From positions 5,089,001 to 5,153,000 of the forward strand of contig NC_088326.1 in assembly GCF_910592395.1 (NCBI RefSeq): a DNA stretch of 64,000 nt, in the 5' to 3' direction. Position 1 is the stretch's first letter. The number at the start of each line of letters is the position of its first letter. Below are positions 1 to 64,000 of the stretch, one piece after another. The notes beneath the pieces were generated by a model. It worked only from the letters and a program-made list of their open reading frames with translations, was not told where the DNA came from and ran no database searches. Origin of the DNA: Lineus longissimus. Lineage: Eukaryota; Nemertea; Pilidiophora; Heteronemertea; Lineidae. The position numbers were made by a program, and so were the translations under genes.

Positions 1-222
1 GCCGTCATCTTGAAAAGTTCTATTGGTTTCACCTGTATTAGGATCTATCTCATCCATTTGGATATATTCACCTCCTGTGTTGTATGTTGTGCCGTCATCT
101 GGATAAGGGAGATTCTTTCTCATTTCTAGAATTTGTTCAAAAGTTCCTGATGATGATGATGATGATGATGATGATTGTGGATCGTAATCACTCATTTCAT
201 AATTTTCACCTCCTTCAGCCAT
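1..222 (-). CDS. Polinton-like coiled-coil protein, N-terminal part (copy A)
   Basis: The frame opens with ATG at 222 and runs off the left edge. The start MAEGGE and the following acidic stretch match the 296-aa protein of copy B (59717-60607). A GAT/ATC trinucleotide run at about 150-177 encodes a serine run that copy B lacks, so this N-terminus varies in length between copies. The function is unknown. In the family this protein leads into a coiled coil and a membrane region. The start lies 10 bp after the stop of the upstream gene, exactly as in copy B, which supports the choice of start. Confidence 0.6.
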   Translation of the reverse strand, partial: MAEGGENYEMSDYDPQSSSSSSSSSGTFEQILEMRKNLPYPDDGTTYNTGGEYIQMDEIDPNTGETNRTFQDDG

Positions 223-232
223 AATTACTTAT

Positions 233-1702
233 TTATCTAACCATAAAAACAATCAATGTACCAACAACTGAGTAAAGCATGAATTTAATTGTTTTATGAG
301 TATCATCCTCCTTCTCAACTTTGGTGTCAAGTGTAGTAGTAGTAGGAATATTCTTTGAGGTTTCAGTTGTTTTTGGTGTATCAACATTACTCTTTGGTTT
401 ATGACTGGTCTCGAGCTTTGCTCTCAGGACGAAGTCCGTCATTGATGTACCAACGCTACTCTTAACTCTTATTTTCTTAGAACTATTTCCTTCCATCAGT
501 GGTGGTGGTAAGGTCTTTTTGTGGTTAATGTCATTCTTACCGGGTTTAGCATTTTTTGGTGCTATTAAAATGTTATTATTGTAGTTATCCAGCTTACCAA
601 TAACGAGTACCATATTTGATCCTATGACATACAATCCTGGTGCTATTACATAATCTAGTCTTGTATGAGTGTCACTCACTGCTTTTTGATATCTTTGAAT
701 TTAAGTGGGAATATCAGGATGTTGATTAATCGAATCCTTTAATAGTTTGTTAAATTCCTTCTGAGCATCCAATTCTGTACCCGGTACTCCAATTATTGGT
801 GTTCTGGTCAACGCCTGAGCACCCAGAATACAGTAAACATATGTTCTTATTGTGTCATTCAACCTCTCTATTCCAGGATTAGAGAAAACATTTGATTTAA
901 ATATCATGAATTGTTGATAGGTTTGACATTCATTTTGTGTAATTACATCAAATACATTCTTGTGTCTCCTGACATGATCCTTGATGAAAATATCTGGATA
1001 TTTGAAATTAGCCATTCCAGCATCCCAGTCTTTACTGAACATCGGTGGCATTCTATTTTCATGAACTTGCATGAGGAAGAAATTGATTTTAGAATCATTG
1101 ATGTAATATCCGGGATCAGTTATGTTCGGGTTGTAATCCGGTACACTCCATGAACTCCAACCACCGTTATTTTCAAACACCGAGAAATCGTACTCGTCTT
1201 TTAAACCAAATTCACTCAATAACCCTCCTAGTTTCCTACGGTTAATGTTATTGTTTGTCTCATTAAAATCACTTTCACCTGGAATTGGTATCTCTAGATT
1301 CTTCATGATCTTCAATATTTGATAGTAAACATGAAACCTGTAAATTGACCTTAACAATGGGTCACTGTGATTCAAGTGATCGTCTATTGAAATACCACAA
1401 CCTGTTGTAGCAAACCAAACAGCCATGTTAAATTGGTTCTGGTAAAACGATAATGGATTCTTTTCCAGTCGCAGACAGTCTTTCTTATTTTTCAGGCTCA
1501 AAAACCCAGGTGTTATCTTAGTTTCTTGTAGTCTGAAGAAGTTATTAGTATTAACAGTTACTTCTAAATTAAAGAAGTCATAGGTGAATTTACTTTTATG
1601 TTGATTTGCTATTGGATAATACTTTATTACTCCAGAAGCTGATGAATAATTATGTTTGGTTTTAACTTCAGTTTTGGATAATGAAGACAGTAAAAAGGCC
1701 AT
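233..1702 (-). pseudogene. Conserved Polinton-like protein of ~490 aa, one nonsense codon (copy A)
   Basis: Two adjacent open frames (1702-701 and 679-233) are the two parts of one gene. A TAA at 703-701 replaces the TCA found at the same place in copy B. The start MAFLLSSLSK follows an AAATAAATG context shared with copy B. The product is a mostly soluble protein rich in Asn, Phe and Tyr, with a Thr/Ser/Lys-rich linker and a hydrophobic C-terminal segment near the end. I know similar uncharacterised proteins in invertebrate Polinton-like elements but cannot assign a function; a virion role is a guess. A 30-nt net in-frame insertion at about 409-441, absent from copy B, adds about 10 residues. 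It is a double-hairpin repeat listed separately. Confidence 0.75.
409..441 (-). repeat. Double-hairpin repeat, copy A-1 (inside ORF)
   Basis: On the minus strand this reads GGAC-TTC-GTCC, then TGA, then GAGC-AAA-GCTC: two short hairpins in tandem. It is translated in frame as DFVLRAKLE. The orthologous gene in copy B lacks it (around 59530-59545), so this is an insertion with a visible empty site. The net length difference is 30 nt, which keeps the frame. Confidence 0.8.
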
Positions 1703-1785
1703 TTATTTTAATGGAATAACCCATTGAACTCTAGTATTCCCTCACCATTTCACTGCAACGCTTCCCTTACCATTTCATGAATGAT

Positions 1786-1915
1786 AGAATATATGTATTG
1801 TGGTGTCTGGTTCTTAGGGGTTTCTAAGCTAATTTGAGACAAAAAGGCCTGTAAGGGCTTTTGTTAAAATAGCTTAGAATTACCTAGATTCCTACCACCA
1901 CAATACATATATTCT
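1786..1915. repeat. Terminal hairpin of copy A
   Basis: The 20-nt arm AGAATATATGTATTGTGGTG at 1786-1805 is repeated as a perfect inverted copy at 1896-1915. The intervening ~90 nt are shared with copy B, but the arms are not. Read from the outside, the element begins with AG, as expected for Polinton-type termini. The outer arm was taken as the element end because gag coding similarity stops at about this point. Confidence 0.6.
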
Positions 1916-14889: not shown

Positions 14890-14977
14890 AAAGATTTGGG
14901 TGTAACTTTTGATAACAAGATTAAAGAAATGATTCAACCAGATTCAAGACCATAATTATGTTCCAGGTGAAACAACA

Positions 14978-15745
14978 GTGCCTATGGAAGGTAGTAGAAG
15001 GGTAAGAAGACCTCAGTTATTATCAAATGAAACACAAACAGTAATCGATGAGGTTATTAAATCACTCAAATTAATAGATAGGTTGATTGATGCAACTGAT
15101 GATGAGCTTAAAGAATTAGGCTTCACGGATAAAGTAATGAGAGAAGTTAGAGCATTAAAAAAGGCTGGTGATGATCTTTCTACAGCCAAAAAATGGAAAT
15201 AGATAGGAAGATGATGGAACTAAACGATCAAATAGAGGAAATGATTAAAGAGAAAGATAAAATGAAAGAGATATTGGAAAAAGACAAAAATTCAAAGAAA
15301 AACTTAACAAGAGATTATCTAAAAGGTTGGGAAGATGATGCTGAAAAAAATCAAGCATTAGAAGAAGATCTTGATCAAGCTAAAGATGATCTTGATAAAG
15401 TTAATAACTTATTAATGAAAAAATTGAGATGAATAAACTACAAAAGGAAATAACTCAACTAGTTAACAAACTGTATGAGGAAAAGGCAAAGGTATGGCGG
15501 ATTGACAATGAGAGGGAGTCACAAACTGAAAGAGCTAAACGTTTAATAAAAGATGTATTAATTAAAAACCAGATTCAACAATTTCACTAAGGGATAGAAT
15601 TATACTACTTTTTAAGAGTGAGGGTTTAACCATTGGTGCCATAGTATCATCTGTAGTTGTGATATTCACAACTCCTGGTTTTATTATCAGTAATGCTCTT
15701 AAAGCTGTCCCTAACCCTACACCACCAGGACCTAAACCTACTACA
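14978..15745 (+). pseudogene. Coiled-coil/membrane protein, first part (copy C)
   Basis: This matches the second half of the 296-aa protein of copy B and the reading frame that follows it. The matching markers are the INEV/IDEV-type block, LTRDYL, NKLYEE and KRLI. It is split into three frames at A-runs (near 15190 and 15420). The middle part (about 15193-15432) is strongly charged and heptad-like, a predicted coiled coil longer than that of copy B. From about 15590 a hydrophobic segment begins (LLFKSEGLTIGAIV-like). A Pro-rich linker is then cut at 15745 by the 5' LTR of the gypsy element; the remainder resumes at about 32416. Confidence 0.7.
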
Positions 15746-32415: not shown

Positions 32416-32666
32416 GATTACATAAACCTACACCACTAGAACCTAAACCAGAACCATCAGTACCAGATAATGTAAAAGCAGGTCTCAAGAAGTTTGCTAA
32501 TTGGCTTAAGGAACTGGCTAAGAATGCAGCAGCTGCTTTACCTGGAATAATCGGGTATATTGTCTCATTCCTATTGAAAACAGTGGCTAGTGTTGTTGGT
32601 TTTCTGACTGAACGCATGATCATAGTATTTTCTATTATCGCTACCTCAATAATGTTAATCAAGTAA
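32416..32666 (+). pseudogene. Coiled-coil/membrane protein, C-terminal part (copy C)
   Basis: It continues the gene cut at 15745. A Pro/Glu linker leads to KAGLKKFANWLKELAKN, then two hydrophobic segments (ALPGIIGYIVSFLLKTV and a Met/Ile-rich one), then TAA at 32664. It aligns with 60930-61200 of copy B over its whole length, but the C-terminal basic tail is shorter. The amphipathic helix plus hydrophobic hairpin suggests membrane insertion. Confidence 0.7.
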
Positions 32667-32713
32667 TACTTCTTAATACGGTGACTTATGATTTACATTA
32701 ATAATAAATAGAA

Positions 32714-32943
32714 TGGCAACAGGATATTCATTAGACACTGATAAGAGTTCATAAGATTCACTTGGTTTGAAGGCTGATTGACAACATCACATTATCACTC
32801 ATAACCCATCTTCTGCTAATCCCAAAGAAACACTGTATGTTAGAATACCGACATTGAGAGAGAATACATTCTTTGTACCAAAATCTCTTTATCTTTCTGC
32901 TGATGTCACCGTTTCCGGGGATTCCAAAAACAGTGTGGTTAAA
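32714..32943 (+). pseudogene. Capsid-like protein, N-terminal fragment
   Basis: From ATG 32714 the frame encodes YSLDTDKS, then after two in-frame stops THNPSSANPKETLYVRIP and SLYLSADVTVSGDSKN. I associate this with the start of a beta-rich capsid protein of invertebrate Polinton-like elements, by pattern and position (between the membrane protein and the ATPase). It then runs directly into the tail of the opposite-strand ATPase, so the rest of the capsid gene has been deleted here. Calling it capsid is an inference. Confidence 0.5.
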
Positions 32944-33432
32944 GCCGAGGACAGACTACCATCTATTGCTCATCAAGATCAAAAAACAGATGTAGGGTCA
33001 CCTGGCAAGTCACTCTTGCTGGCCGCAACAACTGTGCGTTCACACCAATGTCAGGCCCAGGCAGTTTTAGCTACCGGAAAAGGCAAGATTACATAACTCA
33101 GACACCTTCTTCTTTGTGTCTCTCAAATTAGCACAGTCATCAATTAAAAATAATGTGTTTGTTCCATTGAAGGTTACAGTAGCAAATTTAAGCACAATGT
33201 CCAAATTACTTGCCACTGCTTCAGGATTAATTATGCAGACGTTGTTGTCTTGGTAAATCTATTTCCTTTCATATGTCTTATTATTGAAATATGTTGGACA
33301 GAAAATTACTATGCTCTGGAACTTGTTATGATACTCCTTTTCTAAGAGATCAAGAACAAAATGTGTCTTACCACAATTGGTGACACCAGAGATGAGCATG
33401 TTATGTGGCTCGTAAATAAATACTTCACCCAT
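32930..33432 (-). pseudogene. FtsK/HerA-type genome-packaging ATPase
   Basis: ATG at 33432. It shows a Walker A motif SGVTNCGKTHFV near residue 20 and, after a TAG and a frameshift near 33255, a Walker B motif TLFLIDDC near 33155. Further on, LHLFFDLDEQ near 32975 fits the conserved end of Polinton packaging ATPases. Such ATPases are expected to pump DNA into capsids. The start is only 4 bp from the divergent integrase start, a compact arrangement. The N-terminus is short and the gene has several breaks. Confidence 0.75.
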
Positions 33433-33436
33433 TTAA

Positions 33437-34395
33437 ATGAATGTAAATCAAAGTGATGAACAGTATAAAAGGGATTTGTACTACAACCCCGAGAGTCCTG
33501 TGGCTTACAGTTCTTTGAGTAAAATTTGGAAACAAGTGAAGGAAGATTGTGTTACTAGTAAAACTGGTAACAAATTTAAGTACAAAGAAGTTAAAACATT
33601 TCTAGACACACTACCAACACACCAACTACATAAACCAGCCATTAAGAAATTCACCATCAGAAAGACAGTGGTATCTTACATCGATCAACAGTGGCAAGCT
33701 GACTTGGTTGACATGCAGAAATTTGAGAGTAAGAATAAAGGATTCAGATTCATTTTAACAGTCATAGATCTATTCAGTCGTTACTCTTGGGCTGTGGCAG
33801 TGAAGAGTAAGAGGGGAAAAGAAATCAGAGATGCATTTAAAGTGATTTTGAAAGAGTCAAAAACTGTTGTGGCGATACCGGAAAAGATTCAGTTTGATGA
33901 TGGTACTGAATTCTACAAAAAACACTTCAAGCAACTTTTAACAGAAAATGACACAGAATGGTTCTCCTCAAAATCTGACAAGAAGGCAGCAGTCGTAGAA
34001 CAACAGGACTTTGAAGGAAAGGATGTGGAGGTATTTCACTGCTAAGGAGACTGACAAGTGGATCGATGTTCTGGATGACTTGGTCAGTGGCTACAACAAC
34101 ACTTTTCACTCATCAATAGGCATAAAACCAATAGATGCCAGAAAGATGGAAAACGAAGGAGCAGTATGATACAATCTTTATGGTCTTCACCTCAAAGAGA
34201 CATTTGGTGATCCAAAGTACAAAGTAGGTGACAGAGTGAGAATTTCAAAGTACAAGTTCATTTTCGATAACGGCTACCTACCAAACTTCACTAAGGAAGT
34301 ATTCCAAATCAAACAGATCATCTTCACTCATCCTATTGCCACAAGATTGAAGATTATCTCAAGGAGGAAATTCAAGGATATTTCTATGAAGAGGA
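33437..34395 (+). pseudogene. Retroviral-type integrase (rve) of the Polinton
   Basis: The first frame (33437-34045) has the usual Polinton integrase start (NPESPVAYSSLSKIWKQV) and the catalytic core. The first Asp is in QWQADLVDMQ, the second in QFDDGTEFY, and the Glu in KAAVVEQ, so all three catalytic acids are visible. A frameshift near 34003 loses the residues just after the Glu. The next part, WRYFTAK to GYNNTFHSSIG, is followed by a TGA near 34168 and then the C-terminal SH3-like part (YKVGDRVRISKYKFIF). A second frameshift near 34335 returns to a frame that reads on into the next gene. Polintons use this enzyme to insert. Confidence 0.85.
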
Positions 34396-34396
34396 A

Positions 34397-35095
34397 TTGA
34401 GCTATGTTCCTAATCATGACCAACTAGAGTATGGTACGATCAATGTTAATCAGTATCAACCAGTAGTTTCAATACCAAAATTTAAATGTGTCAAATGCTA
34501 TGTAAAAAAACCTGAAAGTGATTTTGAAAAGAATAAACGTAATAAATTCCTGGATTATTGTAAAGCATGTGGTAGGTTAACCAAGAAATGCAATAAATGT
34601 TATGAAGTTAAATTACTAAGTGACGGTGAGTTCGCTAAAGATAGAAATAGAGGTAGCTGTAGATCATGTTGGAACTCTGGCTACAAATGTTATCTTAATA
34701 AGAGTAGTAATAGAGACAGTCATAAAATAAGGGTAGGTTTAAACCGTATTTCTAAAGGCGAGTTAACTTGTAACAACTTGAAATCATCATACTTGAAATC
34801 ATCAGACAGTTTCTTCAGAAAATGGTTAGAGTACCAGAAGTGTCTATATCCAATAATTGATGAGGAGTTAGATTATGTTTTACCAATCATGGAATTCAAA
34901 TATTATCCTGAACTGTGTTTCACTTGGTCTAGCGTAAGGCCCATGGATAATACAGAAAACAGACAGAAGAGTGCTAAAATAGACTGGTACCTATTTAAGG
35001 AGCAATTAGACAGATCAATTAATTTTATTAACAAAATGATGAATGAAAAATGGTTCGAGCAAAGCTATCATGATCAAAATGTGGTATCAGAGTAG
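34397..35095 (+). CDS. HNH-like Zn-binding protein, ~230 aa
   Basis: An open frame with paired CxxC motifs near its start (CVKC, CKAC, CNKC, CRSC), then a helical region and CFTWSSVRPMDNTENRQKSAKI. That last phrase resembles the end of phage and giant-virus HNH nucleases, which have an N-W-x-N-x-x-P-x-x-x-x-E-N-x-K pattern. I infer a DNA-binding or nuclease role. There is no ATG at the frame start. The same frame is open upstream and includes the integrase C-terminus (EDYLKEEI, EEELSY), so the true start is unclear and a fusion is possible. It is unusually intact for copy C. Confidence 0.5.
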   Translation: MSYVPNHDQLEYGTINVNQYQPVVSIPKFKCVKCYVKKPESDFEKNKRNKFLDYCKACGRLTKKCNKCYEVKLLSDGEFAKDRNRGSCRSCWNSGYKCYLNKSSNRDSHKIRVGLNRISKGELTCNNLKSSYLKSSDSFFRKWLEYQKCLYPIIDEELDYVLPIMEFKYYPELCFTWSSVRPMDNTENRQKSAKIDWYLFKEQLDRSINFINKMMNEKWFEQSYHDQNVVSE

Positions 35096-35128
35096 AAAAG
35101 AATTATTCATCAGTATTTTGGGGATTAC

Positions 35129-35335
35129 ATGTACATTGAATTTGAAAATGCTTCTCTACTTAATAAGATATGGCTTTTAAACAACGAAATGTGTTTAAAT
35201 GGAATAAACATTGAAAGTGTTAATTTAGTGGTTGAATTAAGTAATAGGATTCTAAGTAATAGTACTCAAGATAATTTATGTACACCAGAAGACCTAGAAA
35301 GAACCTTCAGATCAAAGTATTATTTATCTAAATAA
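35129..35335 (+). CDS. Small Polinton protein, 68 aa, unknown
   Basis: ATG at 35129 to TAA at 35335, in line with the neighbouring genes. It is mostly helical in composition (Leu/Asn/Glu-rich), with no recognised motif. The next start (35337) follows at once, as expected in a compact virus-like gene string. Confidence 0.4.
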   Translation: MYIEFENASLLNKIWLLNNEMCLNGINIESVNLVVELSNRILSNSTQDNLCTPEDLERTFRSKYYLSK

Positions 35336-35336
35336 A

Positions 35337-35572
35337 TGAATAGAACTTGGAATACACCAACAGACCAAATAATTGAAAAAGTAGATTAGAACAGTTTTAC
35401 AAAGAGCTAGAGGAACTAGAAAAGAAAGATAAAATATCAAATCATGAATTATCAAATAATAATAAACCAGTAGTAGCCCCAATTGTTGATATCAAACCCA
35501 TTGTGACTAAACCACCTGTTGTCCCTGCTGTGATTACACACGCGGAGGGCATGACTGGTTCTAGATCAATTT
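35337..35572 (+). pseudogene. Small charged Polinton protein, frameshifted
   Basis: It starts in an AAATAAATG context directly after the previous stop. After about 15 codons a TAG interrupts. An overlapping frame continues with a charged helix (FYKELEELEKKDKI) and a Pro/Val-rich tail. One frameshift near 35385 separates them. The function is unknown. Confidence 0.4.
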
Positions 35573-35705
35573 GATTAATGACTAGATTATACTAGATCAA
35601 TTAGACTAATGCTGCTGTTAATTCTAGCTTTTCACATTAATTCAATGGAAGACAGAAGTAGGCTTTATCCAGATTTAAATCACCACGATATGATTAATCA
35701 AAATA

Positions 35706-36341
35706 ATGAGTAATCAAAATATGATTGATAAACATAATAATCAGCCTATTGTGAAGAAGTCCGACTTTAACCCTCAAGGTTTCAGAACTAATCAAATAAA
35801 TGAAGTTAAAAAGTTCTTTGAATCTGAGATTGAATGCAGACCAAAAACATTTATGAAATACAAGAAAGCTTTTGATGTGATTACTTCGTTTAACCATGCC
35901 CTACATTTAACAAGTGTGGCTACTGGTTCTGCTGGTATTTCAGCAGTAGCAGGAGTCATCACTGCTCCAACAGGTTTTGCTTTGGGTGGTGTGACAATAG
36001 CAAGTGCCCTTGTTTCATCACTACCTAGTTTTCAGAAGAAGAACATACTTAGGAAAATTGAAAAGCATGAGAAGATATCACAATTAGCCATTTCCAAACT
36101 TAACACAATCAATGATTTGGTCAGTAAAGCACTAACAGATTCGTTCATATCTACAGAGGAATTTAGTTTAATCCTCAAGGAGAAGGAGAAGTACATTTCC
36201 TTGAAGAATGCCATTAGAAAGAAACAAAAGGAGGCTAGTTCTGATAACAGTTTTGACGTAGGAATGCTTAAGAAGACTTTTTTAGAGGAAGGGAAAAAAC
36301 TAGCACATACAGAGATGTTAGAGATATTAAAAAGCAAGTAA
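35706..36341 (+). CDS. Polinton protein with Gly/Ala-rich hydrophobic core, 211 aa
   Basis: An intact frame. The first ~60 residues are polar. Residues about 65-105 are a Gly/Ala/Thr-rich hydrophobic stretch (SAGISAVAGVITAPTGFALGG) suited to membrane insertion or a hydrophobic hairpin. Residues 110-211 are charged and helical (ILRKIEKHEKISQLAISKLNTINDLVSKAL). Similar uncharacterised proteins accompany Polinton-like PolB genes in cnidarians. A minor virion or membrane-active role is a guess. It is intact, unlike most of copy C. Confidence 0.55.
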   Translation: MSNQNMIDKHNNQPIVKKSDFNPQGFRTNQINEVKKFFESEIECRPKTFMKYKKAFDVITSFNHALHLTSVATGSAGISAVAGVITAPTGFALGGVTIASALVSSLPSFQKKNILRKIEKHEKISQLAISKLNTINDLVSKALTDSFISTEEFSLILKEKEKYISLKNAIRKKQKEASSDNSFDVGMLKKTFLEEGKKLAHTEMLEILKSK

Positions 36342-36451
36342 TAGATCATCATTATTATCATTATTTTAATGTACAACAAACATTGCCTTCGTATATTGAA
36401 GCCTCAGCGCCACCTTATTCACTTTGAAAATAATAAAAATATATTAAGTAA

Positions 36452-37498
36452 ATGAATACTATTGAAAGGATGTACAAATTCATTCCTTTAATAGAGTACT
36501 TTAGTTTAGACAGTATTGACGACCAGGAGTTAAAAAATATCTCTAATTATTTGATGGTTCATGATACTTATGATACTCCTGATACAGCAGTACATCCACC
36601 TATGAAACAGTGTGCCATAAGTACAGAATCTAATGTTGAAATATGTCGTAATTGTAAGAGATGAACATTGTATGAGTATATTAGAAACTTGAACCCAACA
36701 AGCTACACAACTAAAGCTATTAAGTACAGGTTTTGTACCTCTTGTAATGCTGTTGCTTATGATGATGACTTCAAAAGTCTAGAGATTAGTATTGAGAATA
36801 AAACACGTTACTTTGACACTATACATAGAAGGCTTGGACAGAGACGTCTATCAGAACAAGTAGTAAATTATCTAAAAGAGTACATTGAGTATGATTTAAA
36901 AGGATACTTCTCTAGTCCTAGAAAATGGCTTAGCAAGGAAAGGTATGAATAGACAGTTCAGTCATCATTAAAAAAGGTATTAATTACTCTACCTTGTAAG
37001 TTAGTTTCAAATATTGAGTCAATGGTATTTCAATTTCACTGCGGAGAGTATGATTGGTATTTAGAGACAGAATTCATTAACCGTTCTATTGGTAACACTT
37101 ACTTAACTGATGAGAATTTTAATGATCTAAGGTTAGTTTTCTTTGCTTTCATAAGATACCTACATTACTGTGGGTTTGAGGTCTCAACTTATTACAAACT
37201 GTTCTTACATCAAGCCTTTAAAATGATGGACATCGATTATGTTGTATTTAACCCTTATTTAACATCCAAGGATAGAATTAGTGATTTGGATGATTTATGG
37301 TATGATTTCATTAAAAGTATTTTCTTCCAGAATTGCAGGTCAGATAAGGAAGATGACGATAACTTAATTCTAGCTAGTGAACCCATACTTGCTGCTATGG
37401 TAGACAAAGAGTTATCATTCATGGGTAGAACTAATACTATTCCATGTAACATAGAATGCCAAAAACGTCTTAGAACTTCACTGTTAAAAGAATACTAA
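36452..37498 (+). pseudogene. Zn-motif protein, homologue of the 389-aa protein of copy B
   Basis: Three collinear frames in one phase relation (36452-36664, 36668-36952, 37022-37498) match 61251-62420. TGA and TAG replace sense codons at about 36662 and 36950, and the third part is joined through a short decayed stretch. Visible motifs are CRNCKR and CTSCNA (a CxxC...CxxC pair), CGEYDWYLETEFINR and YLHYCGF. Copy C has none of the three double-hairpin repeats present in the copy B gene, so it gives the uninserted state. The function is unknown. Confidence 0.7.
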
Positions 37499-37570
37499 AA
37501 GGTTGTTGTTGTTTTTTTTAAAGTTAAAAAAGTTAAAAGAATAAGTAACATTATGTTTCTCTACAAATAA

Positions 37571-38288
37571 ATGGAGTCAAGTGTTATTGAGCAACAGATG
37601 AAACAGATCGGTGTTCTTAGTCAACCTCTTAGTTATCAACTAGAGCAAACCAGTGCTTAACTAGGGCAACAAAAAACAACTAATTTCCAACTAGGTTCTA
37701 ACAAGAATTTAACTACTCAAGGTCTAGTTAACACTGGTAGTCGAGGTGTAGTTAATTCTAGTCAAGGTCTAGTTAATTATAGTTGTCAAGTAGGTTCAAC
37801 TAGCCCTCAACTAAATTCCAACTACTTGACTGAAAATGGTCTTAAAGCCAAACAAGACCTTGATATTTTAGTAGCAACAGGTAAAAGTCAGGATTTCTTT
37901 AACAAACAACTAACATTTAAAGACTTAGATGTTATGTCAGAGAAGGAAATCATTAAATACCAAAGACTCTACCAGACGAAGATGTATGCTAGACGATTCT
38001 TTAGGTGAGACAGTACTTAAGGCTTACATCGAATTAACAAAGTTGTTCCTACCTGTTGATGATGAGGAATAACTTTACAATGATCTTAGAAACGATTATT
38101 TAGTAACTAATGAGTTGGACAAATGGTTAGGATGGGTAAGTCTGAGGATGGGGGCACTAACTGCCCTTGCTTCAACTTCACTCATTACATTAGGACACTG
38201 CCATGGGGAATCACCAATAAAGGTTAATGATGATAACATTGACACAAATAGTGACATAATTAATTCCAGTAACATAAATGGAGATTGA
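37571..38288 (+). pseudogene. Homologue of the 280-aa Q/N-rich protein of copy B
   Basis: It starts in an ACAAATAAATG context. The N-terminal third is rich in Gln, Asn and Ser with repeated QGLVN/RGVVN phrases. The conserved part starts at LTENGLKAKQDLDILVATGKSQ. A TAA at about 37658, a frameshift near 38000 and another stop near 38070 break it. The end (NSSNINGD, TGA at 38288) overlaps the start of the next gene at 38278. In copy B these two genes are separated by a gap holding a degenerate double-hairpin repeat. Confidence 0.65.
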
Positions 38289-38741
38289 CTCAAGTTTCAA
38301 GTAATACAGATGATACTAAACCGATATCAACTAAGAAGGTTAGAACCGATAAACAATTAGCATGGTTTAGAGAGTTGGGTAAAAGGTCTCAGGAATTTAA
38401 GAGAAATAAAAACGAAATTACAACATTCATAGAACCTAAACCTAAACTAGAACCTGAACCTGAACCTGAAGAAGAGGTAAATAATATTACTAGTAATGAA
38501 GAAACATCTAATAGAAGTTCATTATCTCGTACAACCTACATCTATGTAGGTGTAGGTGTAGTTATTTTGGTTAGTTTAATTTACTTCAATTCTTTTGTTC
38601 AGAAAACTAATAAGAAGACTGTAGTTAAGGAACCTACTATGAATGAAACAAATAAAACAAGATACTACTACTTCTAATAAACAAGCTAAAAGTTCTAGTA
38701 ACAGTACTTGTGTTAAACCATCTATTCCTTTAATGGAATGA
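38278..38741 (+). pseudogene. Single-span membrane protein, homologue of the 152-aa protein of copy B
   Basis: It has a basic N-terminal block (KQLAWFRELGKRSQEFKR), an acidic Pro/Glu linker, one membrane span (YIYVGVGVVILVSLIYF) and a Lys-rich tail. A frameshift after the first eight codons and another near 38670 break it. The original C-terminus IPLME is still readable at 38725-38741, where it overlaps the convergent gene. It is probably a small membrane or virion protein. Confidence 0.65.
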
Positions 38742-39440
38742 TTTCCTCATAAGTTATGACTTCATTATCACTTACATTAATACAAGGATTTAACTCTATT
38801 AAGAATTCAAGAACAATAGGCATTCCTCTGAAATTACGATTTTACTATCAGCCTCAATATTTATTTCAAATTTGATATGATTAGTACATTTGTTAACTTC
38901 TTTAGTACAGTTAAGTTCGTACCTTTGAAGCTTAATCTGATCACCATCCTATACAGGTATGATACAAAAAAATATCTGAAGGTCTGTTTTTGAAGAGTGT
39001 TTTACTTTTATCAACCAGATTTGATTTTAATAAAAGATAAGAATTGTAAAAAAGAATAGGTCTGGTAGTGTAGTATTTCCTTTATTTGTAAACTTTCCTT
39101 TTTTAAATCCCATCAACTTAAGTAACAATTTTTTTTCATTTAATGAGAATTTGTTATCCTCTGTAAGTTCAATTATTATGTAATTAATATTATCACAGTT
39201 TTTTTACATGTTTAATTTGTTTATTAATAATTTCGTTTTGAATTTTATCACAAAACTCACTTAAACTAAAATGTTTTTCAAAGAATTCATCATTTTCATA
39301 CTCTGGTATGAAATCCGATGTCCACCAAGAGTTGTAAAAGGTTATTGTCTTTAAAGTAATGGATTTTATGTTTATTTTATTTTGGTAAGTAGTACTGAAA
39401 TGATGCTTCCTCACAGTTTGATTCCTGTATTATAAAGTCC
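38722..39440 (-). pseudogene. Convergent beta-type Polinton protein (spike or minor capsid candidate)
   Basis: Minus-strand pieces can be followed from about 39440 (INIKSITLKTITFYNSWW) through KFTNKGNTTLPDLF to a C-terminus ending IPLKE at about 38725, with many stops. The partial copy in B (63774-64000) aligns at the C-terminal end (NHIKFEI block). Phrases like ITFYNSW near the start occur in minor structural proteins of Polinton-like elements; the role is inferred. Its 3' end overlaps the plus-strand gene through a short palindrome. Confidence 0.5.
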
Positions 39441-58125: not shown

Positions 58126-58258
58126 AGTAATATATATATGAGGTGATAGGAATAATAGGTATTTTGAAGCCATTTTGATCAAAGCCCTTACAGGCCTTTT
58201 TGTCTCAAATTAGCTTAGAAACCCCTAAGAACCAGCCACCTCATATATATATATTACT
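58126..58258. repeat. Terminal hairpin of copy B
   Basis: The arm AGTAATATATATATGAGGTG (58126-58145) is matched by an inverted copy at 58237-58258 that has one extra TA. The ~90 nt between resemble those of copy A (for example GCCCTTACAGGCC), but the arms differ from those of copy A. Confidence 0.6.
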
Positions 58259-58356
58259 TAGGGAATACTACAGCTCAATGGGTTAATTCCTTAAAATAAA
58301 TGGCCTTTTTACTGTCTTCATTATCCAAAATTCAAGGAAAAATTCAAGTAAATTAA

Positions 58357-59706
58357 ATGTATTATCCAATAGCAAATCAACATAAAAGTAACTTCACCTA
58401 TGATTTCTTTAATTTAGAAGTAACTGTTAACAGTAACAAATTCTTCAGACTACAAGAAACTAAGATAACACCTGGGTTTTTGAGCCTGAAAAATAAGAAA
58501 GACTGTCTGCGAATGGAAAAGAATCCATTATCGTTTTACCAGAACCAATTTAACACGGCTGTTTGGTTTGCTACTACCGGTTGTGGTATTTCAATAGATG
58601 ATCACTTGAATCACAGTGACCCATTGATAAGGTCAATTTACAGATTTCATGTTTACTATCAAATATTGAAGATCATGAAGAATCTAGAGATACCAATTCC
58701 AGGTGAAAGTGATTTCAATGAGACAAACAATAACATTAACCGTAGGAAACTAGGAGGGTTATTGAGTGAATTTGGTTTAAAAGACGAATATGATTTCTCA
58801 GTGTTTGAAAGTAATGAGGGGTGGACTTCCTGGAGTGTATCGGATTACAACCCGAACATAACTGATCCCGGATATTACATCAATGATTCTAAAATCAATT
58901 TCTTCCTCATGCAAGTTCATGAAAATAGAATGCCACCGATGTTCAGTAAAGACTGGGATGCTGGAATGGCTAATTTCAAATATCCAGATACCTTCGTGAA
59001 GTATCATGTGAAACAACACAAGAATGTATTTGATGTAATTACACAAAATGAATGTCAAACCTATCAACAATTCATGATATTTAAATCAAATGGTTTCTCT
59101 AATCCTGGAATAGAGAGGTTGAATGACACAATAAGGACATATGTTTACTGTATTCTGGGTGCCCAGGCGTTGACCAGAACACCAATAATTGGAGTACCGG
59201 GTACAGAATTGGATGCTCAGAAGGAATTTAACAAACTATTAAAGGACTCGATTAATCAACATCCTGATATTTCCACTTCAATTCAAAGATACCAAAAAGC
59301 AGTGAGTGACACTCATACAAGACTAGATTATGTAATAGCACCAGGATTGTATGTCATAGGGTCAAATATGGTACTCGTTATTGGTAAGCTGGATAACTAC
59401 AATAATAACATTTTAATAGCACCAAAAAATGCTAAACCTGGTAAGAATGACAAAAAGACCTTACCACCACCACTGATGGAAGGAAATAGTTCTAAGAAAA
59501 TAAGAGTTAAGAGTAGTGTTGATACTGTCAAGACCAGTCATACACCAAAGAGTAATGTTGATGCACCAAAAACAACTGAAACATCAAAGAATACTCCTAC
59601 TACTAAACGGGACACCAAAGTTGAGAGGGAGGATGATACTCATGAAACAATTAAATTCATGCTTTACTCAGTTGTTGGTACATTGATTGTTTTTATGGTT
59701 AGATAA
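58357..59706 (+). CDS. Conserved Polinton-like protein, 449 aa (copy B)
   Basis: The open frame from 58357 matches the copy A gene at 233-1702 almost throughout. The original start is probably ATG 58300 (MAFLLSSLSK, AAATAAATG context as in copy A). In copy B a TAA lies between it and 58357, so the first ~20 codons are cut off or initiation has moved to 58357. The protein has no motif I can name. Conserved phrases include YDFFNLEV, TTGCGISIDDHLNH and TYVYCILGAQ, followed by a Lys/Thr/Ser linker (residues about 360-420) and a C-terminal hydrophobic segment (FMLYSVVGTLIVFMVR). It lacks the double-hairpin insertion of copy A. A virion role is possible but unproven. Confidence 0.75.
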   Translation: MYYPIANQHKSNFTYDFFNLEVTVNSNKFFRLQETKITPGFLSLKNKKDCLRMEKNPLSFYQNQFNTAVWFATTGCGISIDDHLNHSDPLIRSIYRFHVYYQILKIMKNLEIPIPGESDFNETNNNINRRKLGGLLSEFGLKDEYDFSVFESNEGWTSWSVSDYNPNITDPGYYINDSKINFFLMQVHENRMPPMFSKDWDAGMANFKYPDTFVKYHVKQHKNVFDVITQNECQTYQQFMIFKSNGFSNPGIERLNDTIRTYVYCILGAQALTRTPIIGVPGTELDAQKEFNKLLKDSINQHPDISTSIQRYQKAVSDTHTRLDYVIAPGLYVIGSNMVLVIGKLDNYNNNILIAPKNAKPGKNDKKTLPPPLMEGNSSKKIRVKSSVDTVKTSHTPKSNVDAPKTTETSKNTPTTKRDTKVEREDDTHETIKFMLYSVVGTLIVFMVR

Positions 59707-59716
59707 ATAAGTAATT

Positions 59717-60607
59717 ATGGCTGAAGGAGGTGAAGATTATGAAATGGATGATTACGATCATAATTACATTCATAATGTGGATGATCCTCCTGATTGGAGA
59801 AATAATAGAATTTATCAAGATGACGGCACAACATACAACACAGGTAATACAAATCTTACTACTGAAACTTCATTCACTAGAACTCCAGATAGAGCAAGAG
59901 GTATTGTCCCTGAATTGATGGAAAAGGAGTTAAGTTACGATGAAGTAGAGGATAAACTTGCAAAAGCATTGGAAGAAACAAAATGGAAATATGACCATAA
60001 CAAATTGAGTAATCTTGCACCACACATTAGTTACTCTGGAAACAAACTTTATTACGTTCCAAAAACAAATTATGAAGTTGATTTGATAAAAGGTAAATTT
60101 GAAAACGAAAATTTATTTGACTATCATGATAATGATGGATACATTAAAAAGATAATTCCTTTAACTAAGGGTGATGGAGACTTCTATGCTGAAAGAACAT
60201 TAAAGAATAAGTTTGGTGATAGATTTGCTGACATGATTAGAGGTATGATTGAACCTGATGAACCAGCACCTATGGAAGGACCTAGAATGGCACCTATGGA
60301 AGGCCCGGAATCAGTAAGTCAACCACAACAGGTATCAACTCAAACAGATATATTAATTAATGAGGTAAACAGTTCAAACCAACCAATAGATAAACTGACA
60401 GATGCTACTGATGAAGAATTAAGGGCATTTGGTTTTACTGAATCTGCCTTGAGAGAACTTAGAGGGTTAAAACAGGCTGGTGATGATCTAGCTGCAGTAA
60501 AGAGGGATAAGGACATGCAAATAGAGGAATTAGAAAATCAACTTCGTAATTTAACAAGAGACTATTTAGAGCCTGTAGAAGAAGATTCTGAAGATATGGG
60601 GGAGTAG
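59717..60607 (+). CDS. Acidic coiled-coil Polinton protein, 296 aa (copy B)
   Basis: ATG at 59717, 10 bp after the previous stop. Residues 1-70 are acidic and Tyr-rich, 70-175 are a mixed region, and about 180-205 contain two PMEGP phrases. The end (about 240-295) is a charged helix (ELRGLKQAGDDLAAVKRDKD). The frame ends at TAG 60605 just after a run of five G. The protein sequence continues in the -1 frame (EKQIDELNNKLYEEM), so the intended product is probably longer. The function is unknown; similar long proteins occur in cnidarian Polinton-like elements. Confidence 0.7.
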   Translation: MAEGGEDYEMDDYDHNYIHNVDDPPDWRNNRIYQDDGTTYNTGNTNLTTETSFTRTPDRARGIVPELMEKELSYDEVEDKLAKALEETKWKYDHNKLSNLAPHISYSGNKLYYVPKTNYEVDLIKGKFENENLFDYHDNDGYIKKIIPLTKGDGDFYAERTLKNKFGDRFADMIRGMIEPDEPAPMEGPRMAPMEGPESVSQPQQVSTQTDILINEVNSSNQPIDKLTDATDEELRAFGFTESALRELRGLKQAGDDLAAVKRDKDMQIEELENQLRNLTRDYLEPVEEDSEDMGE

Positions 60608-61200
60608 AAAAGCAAATAGATGAACTAAATAATAAATTGTATGAGGAAATGTCAAAGGTATGGAGGTTAAACAATGACAGGGAGTCACAAACTAGAAGAA
60701 TTAAACGTTTAATTGTTGATGTTCTAAAGAAACCAGATTCAACTATTCCTCTAAAGGACAGAATAAAGTAACTTTTTAAGACGTATGGTGTAACCATTAG
60801 CGCCATAATAAAAGCTGTTGTAATGACATTTACAACTCTAGGTCTCAGTATCAGTAGTGCTTTAAGTGGTGCCACTAAATCTGTAAAACCAACTCCAGGA
60901 CCAGACCCAACTCCAGGACCTACACCAGAACCTGGGCCAGGACCAAAACCATCAATACCAGATAAAGTGAAAGAAGGTCTCAAGAAGTTTGCTGAATGGC
61001 TAAAAGAACTGGCCAAGAAATCAGCTGCGGCTTTACCTGGAATCATCGGTTCTATCGTTTCATTTCTCCTGAAAACAATTGGTGCAGTTGTTGGCTTTCT
61101 AGCTGAACATCTGATCATAGCAGTTATTGCTATTGTGAGCTCCATAATCTATGGTTTAATTGGGGGTGTTAAAGCCTTAAAATCACGTAAAAGGTCTTAG
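60604..61200 (+). CDS. Coiled-coil/membrane tail of the same protein (copy B)
   Basis: This frame continues the 296-aa protein: a coiled-coil end, RESQTRRIKRLI, then a TAA at 60769, a hydrophobic helix (TISAIIKAVVMTFTTLGLSI), a Pro/Gly-rich linker (residues about 25-45 of the 60823 frame), an amphipathic helix (GLKKFAEWLKELAKK), two more hydrophobic segments and a basic end (KSRKRS). In copy C the matching codon at the TAA is sense. I infer one ancestral protein of about 490 aa, anchored in or acting on membranes. Whether copy B makes it in two parts or is simply broken cannot be told. Confidence 0.6.
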
Positions 61201-61250
61201 GTGACCTTCTATCAAAAAACAATGTTTAAAAAAATAATTATCATGTAAAT

Positions 61251-62420
61251 ATGAATAAATACATCTCATTAAAAGATTATTATTCTAGTGAGTCGGACTT
61301 CGTCCTGAGAGCAGAGCTCGAGTGGAACAATGAGAATCTTAAAGGATACATTCGACCTAGGGTCATGGATAGAAATTTCAGTGAAGAAAATGTCAGCAAG
61401 AATTATGACAGTGGGAAAGTTGATAAGCCTACTCGAGCTATGCTCTCAAGACGAAGTCTGACTGAGACACACAAAGTAGTCCTTCCAAAAATGAAAGAAT
61501 ATGACGTTAGTACCAACACTAATGCCCAATTCTGCCGTAATTGCAAACGTTGGACACTTTTTGAGTATCAAAAGAATTTAAATTTAGCCAGGAACGCCGC
61601 TAAAACTGTGAAGTATCAATTCTGCATTGTTTGTAATGCAACCAGTTATGATGATGATTTTAAGACTCTTGAGATCAATATTGACAACACGATTCGTTAT
61701 TTTGACATTATTCTTAGAAAGCTTGGATGGAGACGTTTGTCTGAATCGGTTCTCAAATATTTAAAGGACTTTGTGGAAGTGCATTTACAGTGCTACTTTT
61801 CAAGTCCCAGAAAATGTCTTAGTAAGCAGAGATATGAAAGTACAGTCCACTTAGCTTTAAAAATGGGTATTAACACTCTCCCCTCTAAGTTACGGGAAAA
61901 GGGGTTACATGGCGAGGCCATACTTGTTGCATTTCACTGTGGGGAATATGACTGGTTTCTTGCCATTGAATTTATCAACAGGGCTATTGGTAAACCCCAA
62001 TTAACAGATGAGAATATCACCGACCTCAGACTAGTGTACTATGCTTTCCTTAGATTTCTGCATTACTGTGGTGTGAAGGTCACAATTAACTACAAGGTAA
62101 TTTTACACCAAGCCTTTAAAACGATGAAAATTGATTATGTAATATTTAGTCCTTTTTTAACCAACAAGGAGCGAGGTAATGATTTGGAGAGATTATGGTA
62201 TGATTTCACTCAAAGTATTTTCTTCCAGAATTACAAGGTTGAGAAGGAATATGACCAGGAAATTGGCAAGCAGTTTGACGTTTTATTGAGTGCTAGTGCA
62301 GGTCGAGACATTAACTGCATCAGTAGTATTAAGTTAGCACCAGCCGGACTTTGTCCTGGGAGCATAGCTCGAGCTAGTGTTAAGTGCAATAAACTTGTGA
62401 AAACAGCATTTTGTACTTAA
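61251..62420 (+). CDS. Zn-motif Polinton protein, 389 aa, carrying three repeat insertions (copy B)
   Basis: An intact frame. It has CRNCKRW and CIVCNA (paired CxxC, residues about 95-130), then conserved phrases shared with copy C: YFSSPRKCLSKQRYE, CGEYDWFLAIEFINR, FLHYCGV. The N-terminal ~85 residues and the C-terminal ~45 differ from copy C. They contain three double-hairpin repeats, translated as SDFVLRAELE, TRAMLSRRSLT (the reverse orientation) and GLCPGSIARA. The repeats therefore enlarge this protein in place. The function is unknown; the Zn ribbon suggests nucleic-acid or protein binding. Confidence 0.7.
   Translation: MNKYISLKDYYSSESDFVLRAELEWNNENLKGYIRPRVMDRNFSEENVSKNYDSGKVDKPTRAMLSRRSLTETHKVVLPKMKEYDVSTNTNAQFCRNCKRWTLFEYQKNLNLARNAAKTVKYQFCIVCNATSYDDDFKTLEINIDNTIRYFDIILRKLGWRRLSESVLKYLKDFVEVHLQCYFSSPRKCLSKQRYESTVHLALKMGINTLPSKLREKGLHGEAILVAFHCGEYDWFLAIEFINRAIGKPQLTDENITDLRLVYYAFLRFLHYCGVKVTINYKVILHQAFKTMKIDYVIFSPFLTNKERGNDLERLWYDFTQSIFFQNYKVEKEYDQEIGKQFDVLLSASAGRDINCISSIKLAPAGLCPGSIARASVKCNKLVKTAFCT
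61292..61323 (+). repeat. Double-hairpin repeat B-1
   Basis: GGAC-TTC-GTCC, TGA, GAGC-AGA-GCTC. Inside the 389-aa gene, read as SDFVLRAELE. Confidence 0.85.
61431..61463 (-). repeat. Double-hairpin repeat B-2, reverse orientation
   Basis: On the minus strand AGAC-TTC-GTCT, TGA, GAGC-ATA-GCTC. Both sides of the first stem are changed relative to the consensus, so pairing is kept. Inside the 389-aa gene. Confidence 0.85.
62343..62374 (+). repeat. Double-hairpin repeat B-3
   Basis: GGAC-TTT-GTCC, TGG, GAGC-ATA-GCTC. Near the 3' end of the 389-aa gene, read as GLCPGSIARA. Confidence 0.8.
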
Positions 62421-62443
62421 CACTCATTTTTCTATTATTTTAA

Positions 62444-63286
62444 ATGAACAGTCAGCAAATGAATAGTCAGACATCATCTGTAATTGAACAACAAATGAAA
62501 CATGTTGGTGTTATCAATCAAAACCCAGTCGGACTTTGTCCTGAGAGCATAGCTCGAGTCGGTCGCAGTCCTGAGAGCATAGCTCGAGTTGGGGCTTCTA
62601 ACCAACAGAACACTGGTAGTTACCAACAGAACAGTACTAACTTTCAACAGAACTGCACTACAAATCAACAAGTTTCAAACAAGCAGTTGAATAGTTCAAA
62701 TTTAGTTACTCCTAGTCAAGGAATAGTCAATTCTAGTTGCCAACTAGGATCAACTAGCAATCAACAAGGTTCAAGTAGCAATCAACAAAATTTGAACTAT
62801 TTGACTGATAGTGGCCTTAAAGCCAAACAAGAGTTAGAAATTTTAGTTGCAACTGGGAAAAGCAAGTATTTACTTAATAAACAACTAACTTTAAATGACT
62901 TAGATAATATGACAGAAAAGGAACTCTTAAAACACCACAGAATCTACCAGACAAAGATGGCTGCCAGACTTAATTATTCTTTGGGTAAGACAGTACTTAA
63001 AGCTTACACTAAATTATCAAGGTGGTTATTACCAATAGATGACGAGGATAATCTTTACCATGACCTCAGAAATGATTACATCGTTACCAATGAACTTGAC
63101 AAATGGCTTGGATGGGTTAGTATCAAAATGGGAGCATTGACGGCACTTGCTTCAACAACACTTATTACTTTAGGCCATTGTCATGAGGAATCATCAATGA
63201 ATACACCAAATATGACTGTCTCTGAATGTGACAAACCAATAGATGAAAGTCTAAATATTACAGGTAGTGATGATAAAGAAGACTAA
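62444..63286 (+). CDS. Q/N/S-rich Polinton protein, 280 aa (copy B)
   Basis: An intact frame with a TTTAAATG start. Residues 1-120 are rich in Gln, Asn and Ser and include two tandem double-hairpin insertions (GLCPESIARVG, then RSPESIARVG). Residues about 122-250 are the conserved part, with LTDSGLKAKQELEILVATGK, LPIDDEDNLYHDLRNDY and KWLGWVSIKMGALTALAST. The last part ends in a small hydrophobic helix and an acidic tail. I know this conserved part from other invertebrate Polinton-like elements, where it is uncharacterised. It overlaps nothing, whereas in copy C the homologue overlaps the next gene. Confidence 0.65.
   Translation: MNSQQMNSQTSSVIEQQMKHVGVINQNPVGLCPESIARVGRSPESIARVGASNQQNTGSYQQNSTNFQQNCTTNQQVSNKQLNSSNLVTPSQGIVNSSCQLGSTSNQQGSSSNQQNLNYLTDSGLKAKQELEILVATGKSKYLLNKQLTLNDLDNMTEKELLKHHRIYQTKMAARLNYSLGKTVLKAYTKLSRWLLPIDDEDNLYHDLRNDYIVTNELDKWLGWVSIKMGALTALASTTLITLGHCHEESSMNTPNMTVSECDKPIDESLNITGSDDKED
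62528..62560 (+). repeat. Double-hairpin repeat B-4
   Basis: GGAC-TTT-GTCC, TGA, GAGC-ATA-GCTC in the 280-aa gene, read as GLCPESIARV. Confidence 0.85.
62559..62590 (+). repeat. Double-hairpin repeat B-5, tandem with B-4
   Basis: It abuts B-4. The first stem is altered (GGTC-GCA-GTCC, no longer fully paired); the second is intact (GAGC-ATA-GCTC). Read in the same frame as RSPESIARVG. Confidence 0.75.
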
Positions 63287-63292
63287 ATTAAC

Positions 63293-63318
63293 CTGGTCAT
63301 GAGAACATAGTTCGAATT
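63293..63318 (+). repeat. Degenerate double-hairpin repeat B-6, intergenic
   Basis: The first stem is lost. The second reads GAAC-ATA-GTTC, a paired change from GAGC/GCTC. It lies between the 280-aa and 152-aa genes, which overlap in copy C. Confidence 0.6.
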
Positions 63319-63334
63319 AATTCGGCCAAGATAA

Positions 63335-63793
63335 ATGGAACTTGAAACTGTAACTGATACTACTAAAGTTTCAGTGTCTAAGAAACCTCGATCAGAGAAA
63401 CAATTAGCATGGTCTAGAGAACTGGGTAGAAGATCTCAGGAATTTAAGAGGATAAAAAAGGATAAGACGACATTTAAAGTACAGGACTCCTCCCCAAACA
63501 ACAGAGTTGTGGAAAAGGAGGAAGAAGAAGTAGAGGAAGAAGAACCACAATCTCAAAATACTGATGTATCACTGCGTGAATCTACCAGTAATACCTATGT
63601 CTATGTAGGTTTAGGTGCAATTATTTTAGCAGCATTTATTATGTTTAAGAAACTTCCTAAAAAAGTAAGTAAAGAGCAGCGATCAGGCTTGAATGAAGCA
63701 GTCATGAAGGGATCACTCAGGAAGGGGTCAATTAGCCCTCTTGTTAAACCTGTAGTTAAAGAGAAGAAATGTACTATTCCTTTAATGGAATGA
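63335..63793 (+). CDS. Single-span membrane Polinton protein, 152 aa (copy B)
   Basis: ATG in a GATAAATG context. There is a basic block (KQLAWSRELGRRSQEFKR, residues about 20-40), a Glu-rich linker (about 60-75), one membrane span (TYVYVGLGAIILAAFIMF, about 88-106) and a Lys-rich tail ending CTIPLME. The homologue in copy C (38278-38741) keeps the same order. The charge pattern suggests the basic N-terminus faces nucleic acid or the interior. The 3' end overlaps the convergent gene by about 20 bp. Confidence 0.7.
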   Translation: MELETVTDTTKVSVSKKPRSEKQLAWSRELGRRSQEFKRIKKDKTTFKVQDSSPNNRVVEKEEEEVEEEEPQSQNTDVSLRESTSNTYVYVGLGAIILAAFIMFKKLPKKVSKEQRSGLNEAVMKGSLRKGSISPLVKPVVKEKKCTIPLME

Positions 63794-64000
63794 TCTCATC
63801 AGGTGGTCGGACTTCGTCCTGAGAGCAGAGCTCGAGTCCGAGGTGCTTGTCTTCACCACAAGAGTTTAACTCTATTCGGACTTCGTCCTGAGAGCATAGC
63901 TCGATTCTTAACTCTAAAGAAACCTCTGTTCCTCTGAAATTAACTAGCTTACCATTCTCATCAGTGATTTCGAATTTTATGTGATTAGTACACTTATTTA
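63774..64000 (-). CDS. Convergent beta-type Polinton protein, C-terminal part (copy B)
   Basis: It enters from the right edge and ends at TAG 63774-63776. Readable from the N-side: NHIKFEITDENGKLVNFRG, then LELRIEL, then two double-hairpin repeats in reverse (each giving LCSQDEVR), and the end DEIIPLKE. The homologue in copy C (38722-39440) has no repeats and is shorter here. A spike or minor capsid role is inferred from its fold-like pattern. Confidence 0.55.
   Translation of the reverse strand, partial: NKCTNHIKFEITDENGKLVNFRGTEVSLELRIELCSQDEVRIELNSCGEDKHLGLELCSQDEVRPPDEIIPLKE
63806..63840 (+). repeat. Double-hairpin repeat B-7
   Basis: GGAC-TTC-GTCC, TGA, GAGC-AGA-GCTC. The flanks CGGAC...GTCCG could also pair as an outer stem. 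It lies inside the minus-strand convergent gene. Confidence 0.85.
63875..63906 (+). repeat. Double-hairpin repeat B-8
   Basis: GGAC-TTC-GTCC, TGA, GAGC-ATA-GCTC. Inside the minus-strand convergent gene, 35 bp from B-7. Confidence 0.85.

Follow-up and report, generated by a model that had tools for sequence, protein, structure and literature searches.

A probable mobile 28-nt double-hairpin repeat in a virus-like element of the nemertean Lineus longissimus

Short hairpin repeats that sit in frame inside genes are known from mitochondria and from Rickettsia, and Elhai is said to have described very small mobile repeats in cyanobacteria; how such tiny pieces of DNA move is an open question. We analyzed a repeat of this sort in 64,000 nucleotides (nt) of the Lineus longissimus genome (assembly GCF_910592395.1, NC_088326.1, positions 5,089,001 to 5,153,000 of the forward strand), a stretch that we call the window. 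The repeat unit is 28 nt long, has the consensus CGGACTTCGTCCTGAGAGCATAGCTCGA and occurs nine times, in two partial copies (A and B) of a virus-like element of which the window also holds a diverged copy (C). The best parallel comes from yeast mitochondria, where GC clusters are hairpin repeats with short flanking duplications (PMC4478555) and include in-frame insertions in var1 (PMC8811140). Translational bypassing has also been reported, for Magnusiomyces mitochondria (PMC8811140).

Like the yeast GC clusters, the unit is a short GC-rich hairpin repeat (57% GC against 36% in the element) with a duplicated dinucleotide, seen here in eight of the nine copies and in all eight good ones, and because of this dinucleotide we regard the GC cluster as its closest working parallel. 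The clusters differ in being mitochondrial, in lying mostly between genes and in size (42 nt for GC42), and they are flanked by AG or ACT, whereas the unit is flanked by GT, GA, GC or TT, mostly GT. As both the compartment and the flanking repeat are other ones, the unit is not a GC-cluster member; the best reading, by analogy, is that it would work like these clusters in apparently nuclear virus-like DNA.

Other systems share some of these features. The double-hairpin or repetitive hairpin-forming elements of fungal and sponge mitochondria consist, as here, of two small hairpins or hairpin repeats that are dispersed and apparently mobile (PMC10085805; PMC2800124). Unlike the apparently nuclear unit, these elements are mitochondrial; those of Schizosaccharomyces lie between genes or in rRNA genes (PMC10085805), and those of Allomyces are said to have no flanking duplications (PMC2800124), whereas the unit has matching dinucleotides. 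The palindromic elements of Rickettsia lie in open reading frames (ORFs) and keep the frame, as the unit does, but they are bacterial, 100-150 bp long, and fill the same locus in orthologues (PMC3767692). The submariner miniature inverted-repeat transposable elements of Pandoravirus salinus likewise show non-autonomous spread in the genome of a eukaryotic DNA virus, with 10 of 30 in predicted genes, a 2-bp duplication and a paralogous empty site; they are 243 bp long and have terminal inverted repeats of ~100 bp and a TA duplication, in contrast to the 28-nt unit without such repeats (PMC4495683). An earlier account of this DNA made from the letters alone (the sequence-only reading) had compared the repeat with the Rickettsia and double-hairpin elements, which is a fair analogy, though the yeast GC cluster comes closest.

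The repeat unit, its flanks and its empty sites

Taken as a whole, our data are best explained by a non-autonomous mobile double-hairpin element of 28 nt, a reading to which we give a probability of roughly 0.8. As far as the sequence tells, the units stand at unrelated sites of one virus-like element family, in both orientations, with matching dinucleotides and with three empty counterparts (Table 1).

One unit lies in copy A and eight, seven good and one decayed, lie in copy B, which agrees in number and place with the sequence-only reading. Its length of ~32 bp did not hold, since 32 is the 28-nt unit plus the matching dinucleotide on each side. The eight good copies match the consensus at 24-28 of 28 positions, and a 27-nt pattern with at most three mismatches found 7 matches in the window and 0 in 100 shuffles. 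The chance level for the match count was set with 20 mononucleotide shuffles, the best of which reached 20/28; the decayed copy at 63288-63315 reaches the same value and is thus not above chance by this count. It rests instead on a structure model, with 37.5 bits, of which it is itself one of the nine training rows. This covariance model, built from the nine copies (28 nt, 8 pairs) and run unfiltered on the window at E up to 10, returned 21 rows. The nine training copies scored 37.5-49.7 bits, and six rows of 6.9-17.3 bits were their reverse-strand shadows; the other six, away from the copies, scored 6.9-12.6 bits (best E 0.34) and are treated as chance, so that the scan gave no tenth unit above chance level in the 64-kb window. 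One of these weak rows, at 35055-35090 with 8.1 bits, falls between the limits of copy C and could be what is left of a unit, though it is too weak to count.

The same dinucleotide stands on both sides of all eight good copies, while the flanks of the decayed copy are unequal, and we read these matching dinucleotides as a 2-bp target-site duplication. For random positions in copy B, 8.8% of the dinucleotide pairs spaced by 28 nt are equal; the chance of eight matches in eight is 4e-9, and that of at least eight in nine, with the decayed copy as a failure, is 3e-8. When the set of dinucleotides is held fixed, the exact chance of the matching is 0.003, and leaving out the second tandem copy raises it to 0.005. 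GT stands at four of seven sites against a background of 5.7% (P 3e-4, tandem pair counted once, decayed copy omitted). Beyond 2-3 nt the identity between flanks is near background, except for the isolated columns -11, -14 and +20, and the local scores of 60-nt flanks have means of 11.8 (left) and 13.0 (right) against 12.6 for random element sites, in a comparison that covered seven of the nine copies and omitted the tandem pair. The fact that flank identity is confined to 2-3 nt and that the dinucleotides match gives a unit of 28 nt and an insertion that adds 30 nt; as 30 nt are ten codons, the reading frame is kept in any phase, provided that the unit's own frame is free of stops.

Two other accounts of the sites were tried and rejected. 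Palindromic targets were found at none of eight sites below 0.05, with two sites at 0.076 (tandem pair as one). Segmental duplication of one gene region, which the sequence-only reading had named as an outcome that would undo it, is not borne out as the source of the units, given that the flanks of the seven copies compared are unrelated beyond 2-3 nt. As an observation apart, unit 63877 is flanked by two copies of TTAACTCTA (at 63866 and 63908; span 63866-63916), a direct repeat longer than TT, and copy C has the left one, at 38790.

Filled and empty sites could be compared between the element copies. Copies A and B are 96.2% identical over the 1381 aligned nucleotide positions of the compared stretch. 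The unit of copy A lies in its homologue of the gene for a 449-amino-acid (449-aa) protein, and copy B has no unit at that place, with a difference of 30 nt; copy A without its unit and one GA has the length of copy B, which has one GA there, and 61 of 70 positions are identical. At site 62345 the copy C protein is shorter by exactly ten residues and the DNA alignment shows a 30-nt gap, and at site 63877 copy C is shorter by 30 or 32 nt, depending on the alignment. The tally over the nine copies is three clear empty sites, three compatible ones and three with an unreliable alignment, and gain of the units is the simpler reading. That the units might be an ancestral part of these proteins, the other objection which the sequence-only reading had raised against itself, is not borne out at the sites that can be aligned, where copy B is empty at the A site and copy C at 62345 and 63877. 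The 449-aa gene that bears the A site was not found in copy C by self-BLAST of the window.

The two tandem hairpins joined by TGA that had been described for the unit, GGAC-TTC-GTCC and GAGC-ANA-GCTC, are indeed there, weakened in copies 62560 and 63288. For the consensus, both are predicted as RNA and as DNA and in either orientation, and 96.9% of the cells pair across eight distinct rows of the alignment, with one broken pair each in copies 62560 and 63288 (in hairpin 1 for the latter). Changes on both sides of a pair account for three cells in two pairs. One of them lies in copy 61433, where a hairpin 1 pair went from G-C to A-T, and two lie in copy 63288, one in each hairpin. No shuffle out of 500 and no slid register gave three such cells; two pairs with such a change turned up in 13 of the 500 shuffles but again in no slid register. 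These few paired changes would favor selection that maintains the hairpins, or else their templated repair. The unit agrees with its own reverse complement at 8 of 28 positions, and its reverse strand scores weakly with the covariance model (the shadows of 6.9-17.3 bits), so that it has no terminal inverted repeats.

ORFs contain eight of the nine units, of which five are in sense and three in antisense orientation, and four of the six frames are used. The sequence-only reading had stressed that seven of the eight B copies lie in genes, in both orientations and in different frames; the count is right, yet the listed ORFs cover 97% of 61251-64000, so that random insertion would give the same and neither a preference for genes nor an enrichment in them follows. 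Its statement that five of the six frames of the unit are open applies when position 21 is A or G, as in three of the nine copies, whereas four are open in the commoner form with T. One frame would gain a stop from this T, and the two sense copies that use it have A and G instead; one of the six other ORF copies likewise has G, and the link between position 21 and reading frame is not significant (Fisher 0.107).

The genes that bear units in copy B are conserved in copy C, the minus-strand gene weakly. The 449-aa gene is under selection, as judged from synonymous (dS) and nonsynonymous (dN) divergence between copies A and B (dS 0.13 and dN 0.027 in the long piece, dS 0.083 and dN 0.036 in the short piece). 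Its homologue in copy A has an in-frame stop, and copy A is therefore broken at least there. An AlphaFold model of the 389-aa ORF made from one sequence had a mean predicted local distance difference test (pLDDT) score of 32.8 and was of no use.

The host element and its surroundings

Only one end of copy A and one end of copy B lie inside the window. Copy C has the same gene order as copy B, with 38-70% protein identity in matches of at least 55 residues. Between genes of copy C that match copy B lies an rve integrase ORF (33437-34045; PF00665, 1.3e-11); this integrase and further ORFs stand between the homologues of the 125-aa and 389-aa genes, where copy B is without them.

Polintons have been described by PolB, an rve integrase, an Ulp1 protease and a packaging ATPase, with capsid genes added later (PMC11071308). 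No rve-type integrase is present in the visible parts of copies A and B, and the seven ORFs of visible copy B gave no Pfam match, be it to protein-primed PolB, packaging ATPase, Ulp1 protease or capsid. That the host element is Polinton-like, as the sequence-only reading had it, is plausible and unproven; the integrase ORF in the span of copy C speaks for this label, and no other hallmark gene was recognized in the part of copy B inside the window. We also take the 125-aa ORF, the minus-strand ORF piece and the integrase to resemble those of invertebrate Polintons. Reverse transcriptase domains occur in the window as well (RVT_1 twice, zf-RVT once), and it is from these and the rve integrase ORF that we infer, indirectly, a nuclear location.

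Some further features were seen along the way. The element ends fold as a hairpin of ~130 nt, at 1786-1915 in copy A (-55.8 kcal/mol) and at 58127-58256 in copy B (-40.2 kcal/mol, both with RNA parameters); the outer arms differ between A and B, yet within A and within B they can still pair, which would suit ends of hairpin shape or ends renewed by copying one arm. Copy A ends in or beside a minus-strand ORF (1892-2182) that by eye looks like a gag-type retroelement gene, and the element may have inserted into a retroelement. At 27104-30004 an RVT_1 ORF (8.2e-35) and, after it, an ORF in which a zf-RVT domain was recognized (1.6e-07) are probably a long interspersed nuclear element. Two 62-bp tandem arrays with a common 30-bp consensus lie ~600 bp apart, at 44630-44691 and 45237-45298.

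Searches beyond the window gave little. No Rfam family reached its gathering score in the window, and at E up to 5 the sole row for 61200-64000 was a snoRNA-like one at 63512-63566 (E 0.7), outside the units, so that no Rfam family could be assigned to them. Exact-pattern scans, in which exact matches alone counted and from which records near the window's genome may be missing, gave 0 matches in a viral contig collection and 0 for two unit core patterns in a genome contig collection. Three ORFs compared at the protein level with the viral contig collection had no confirmed relative, and there was no match for the 449-aa ORF in a phage collection, for the tandem unit pair in phage and plasmid collections, or in sequence searches of the PDB. 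PHROGs and NCBIfam returned weak rows alone, such as a tape-measure row at 0.0011 for the 125-aa ORF and, for the integrase ORF, IS481, IS3 and IS30 rows below the cut-off. Among the matches listed in the open-licence literature, going by titles and the starts of abstracts, there was no report that Polintons or further nuclear virus-like elements contain repeats of this kind, and the available parts of PMC12220804 and PMC5799277 contain nothing on them.

Table 1. Element copies, repeat units and unit-related ORFs in the window (matches to the 28-nt consensus; dinucleotides given as left/right flank)
Feature	Coordinates	Strand	Details
Element copy A, partial	1..1915	-	runs off window; inner end approximate
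Element copy B, partial	58126..64000	+	runs off window; start approximate
Diverged copy C, piece (part of 296-aa ORF and what follows)	14966..15702	+	from self-BLAST
Diverged copy C, main part	32427..38894	+	genes in the order of B; no unit above chance
Unit in copy A	411..438	-	27/28; GA/GA; sense in 449-aa gene homologue; frame DFVLRAKLE; empty site in B
Unit near N-terminus of 389-aa ORF	61294..61321	+	27/28; GT/GT; frame DFVLRAELE
Antisense unit in 389-aa ORF	61433..61460	-	26/28; GT/GT; frame TRAMLSRRS
Unit near C-terminus of 389-aa ORF	62345..62372	+	26/28; GC/GC; frame GLCPGSIAR
Unit in 280-aa ORF	62530..62557	+	27/28; GT/GT; frame GLCPESIAR
Second tandem unit, 30 nt on, in 280-aa ORF	62560..62587	+	24/28; GT/GT; hairpin 1 altered
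Decayed or divergent unit directly after stop codon of 280-aa ORF	63288..63315	+	20/28; AA/AT; 37.5 bits
Antisense unit in C-terminal part of minus-strand ORF	63808..63835	+	27/28; GT/GT; frame LELCSQDEVR
Antisense unit identical to consensus, same minus-strand ORF	63877..63904	+	28/28; TT/TT; frame IELCSQDEVR
449-aa ORF, empty site for the A insertion	58357..59706	+	A/B comparison
389-aa ORF with three units	61251..62420	+	50% aa identity to copy C over 312 residues
280-aa ORF with two tandem units	62444..63286	+	50-70% aa identity to copy C
Minus-strand ORF fragment with two units	63774..63998	-	cut by window end; weak copy C match

How the unit may have spread

The exact ends and the dinucleotide duplication point to insertion at a break staggered by 2 nt. 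The unit would then have moved at the DNA level, with a copy placed into such a break, which may have been made by an enzyme acting in trans during replication of the element DNA. The hairpins might be recognized by this machinery or protect the mobile strand, and insertions into tolerant parts of proteins would be retained. Because the units are here confined to the element, we give weight to the machinery of the replicating element as the driver of this DNA route, at about even odds. The fuller picture, in which a 28-nt nano-element lives in the genes of a virus-like Polinton, makes ten-codon insertions in a stretch that is 97% coding and is moved by the machinery of the replicating viral element and not by that of the host, falls some way short of even odds and is offered tentatively.

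Several points weigh against a mobile double hairpin. The sample is nine copies from a single window, and no mover was found. Random insertion leaves the clustering in copy B unexplained: its eight units share the final 2.7 of 5.9 kb (0.002, post hoc), perhaps because the unit hops locally or because this part tolerates it better. The folding energy of the consensus is unremarkable (z -1.0 as RNA and -1.2 as DNA, range -1.0 to -1.5), hairpin 1 is largely lost in copy 62560 (RNA fold only), and it is also gone from the RNA fold of copy 63288, which as DNA folds in another way. Two of the three cells changed on both sides come from this decayed copy, only two of the eight pairs vary in this way, and the three further pair types are unremarkable, since 52 of 500 shuffles and also two slid registers yield as many; the pairing shuffles, moreover, ignore how the copies are related. 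As for the empty sites, the 8 nt to the left of the A site contain five of the nine A/B mismatches, and the placement of the GA in this pair therefore rests on length, and with other gap costs the gap at 62345 splits into 14+1+15 nt among further gaps. Copy C is shorter by 24 nt, not 30, at 63808 and by 58 nt, with ambiguous gap placement, over the stretch compared for 62530/62560, so that these sites are counted as compatible, and at 61294, 61433 and 63288 the alignment to copy C is unreliable. At single sites, a unit may have been lost and not gained.

The same mobile double hairpin could also have travelled through RNA, its folded transcripts being reverse-transcribed into nicked or broken DNA by an enzyme of a host retroelement. 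The window has the reverse transcriptase ORFs mentioned above, and RNA-mediated spread is suspected for yeast GC42 (PMC4478555) and for the Allomyces elements (PMC2800124). For the latter, however, the argument was drawn from missing flanking duplications (PMC2800124), which are present here; in addition, both ends are exact in all eight good copies and no poly(A) or other tail was seen by eye in the 25-nt flanks, and we consider this route unlikely. Less probable again is that the repeats serve the element as a signal maintained by selection, for instance a hairpin for packaging, replication or transcript processing, and are not selfish insertions. The structure with its paired changes, the clustering within one 2.6-kb stretch and the confinement of all nine units to copies A and B, which make up 7,790 of the 64,000 nt (6e-9 for random placement, post hoc) and leave none above chance in the other 56 kb, would all suit such a signal. 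It should then not be missing from copy C, which has none above chance despite its matching gene order, nor from copy B at the A site, and the two orientations, the four reading frames and the Rfam results given above fit it poorly.

Local duplication or gene conversion of a coding repeat, with the matching dinucleotides as a by-product of GT ends of that repeat, would account for the tandem pair 62530/62560, which a 30-bp tandem duplication would also produce, and for the identity of 61292-61323 and 63806-63837 over 32 nt. It sits badly with unrelated flanks, inverted copies, copies that are matched on both sides by GA, GC and TT, and the one GA in the empty site of copy B, and is very improbable. 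An artefact of adapter or assembly junk might be suspected from a short motif of high identity in one region, a suspicion that is close to negligible given copies that vary with paired stem changes, open frames, matching dinucleotides and empty sites.

Meaning for virus-like elements

If the tentative fuller picture is true, no smaller mobile element of this kind is, to our knowledge, on record for nuclear or viral DNA, and the unit would supply virus proteins again and again with new peptides of ten residues. Beside the in-frame hairpin repeats of mitochondria and Rickettsia, this locus presents one in an apparently nuclear virus-like element, together with matching dinucleotides, a filled and empty pair and paired stem changes. 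Should the element prove abundant in the host genome, its copies would reveal directly by what rule and with what stagger the unit inserts and how old each insertion is. The locus also points to a way in which virus-like proteins can gain peptides.

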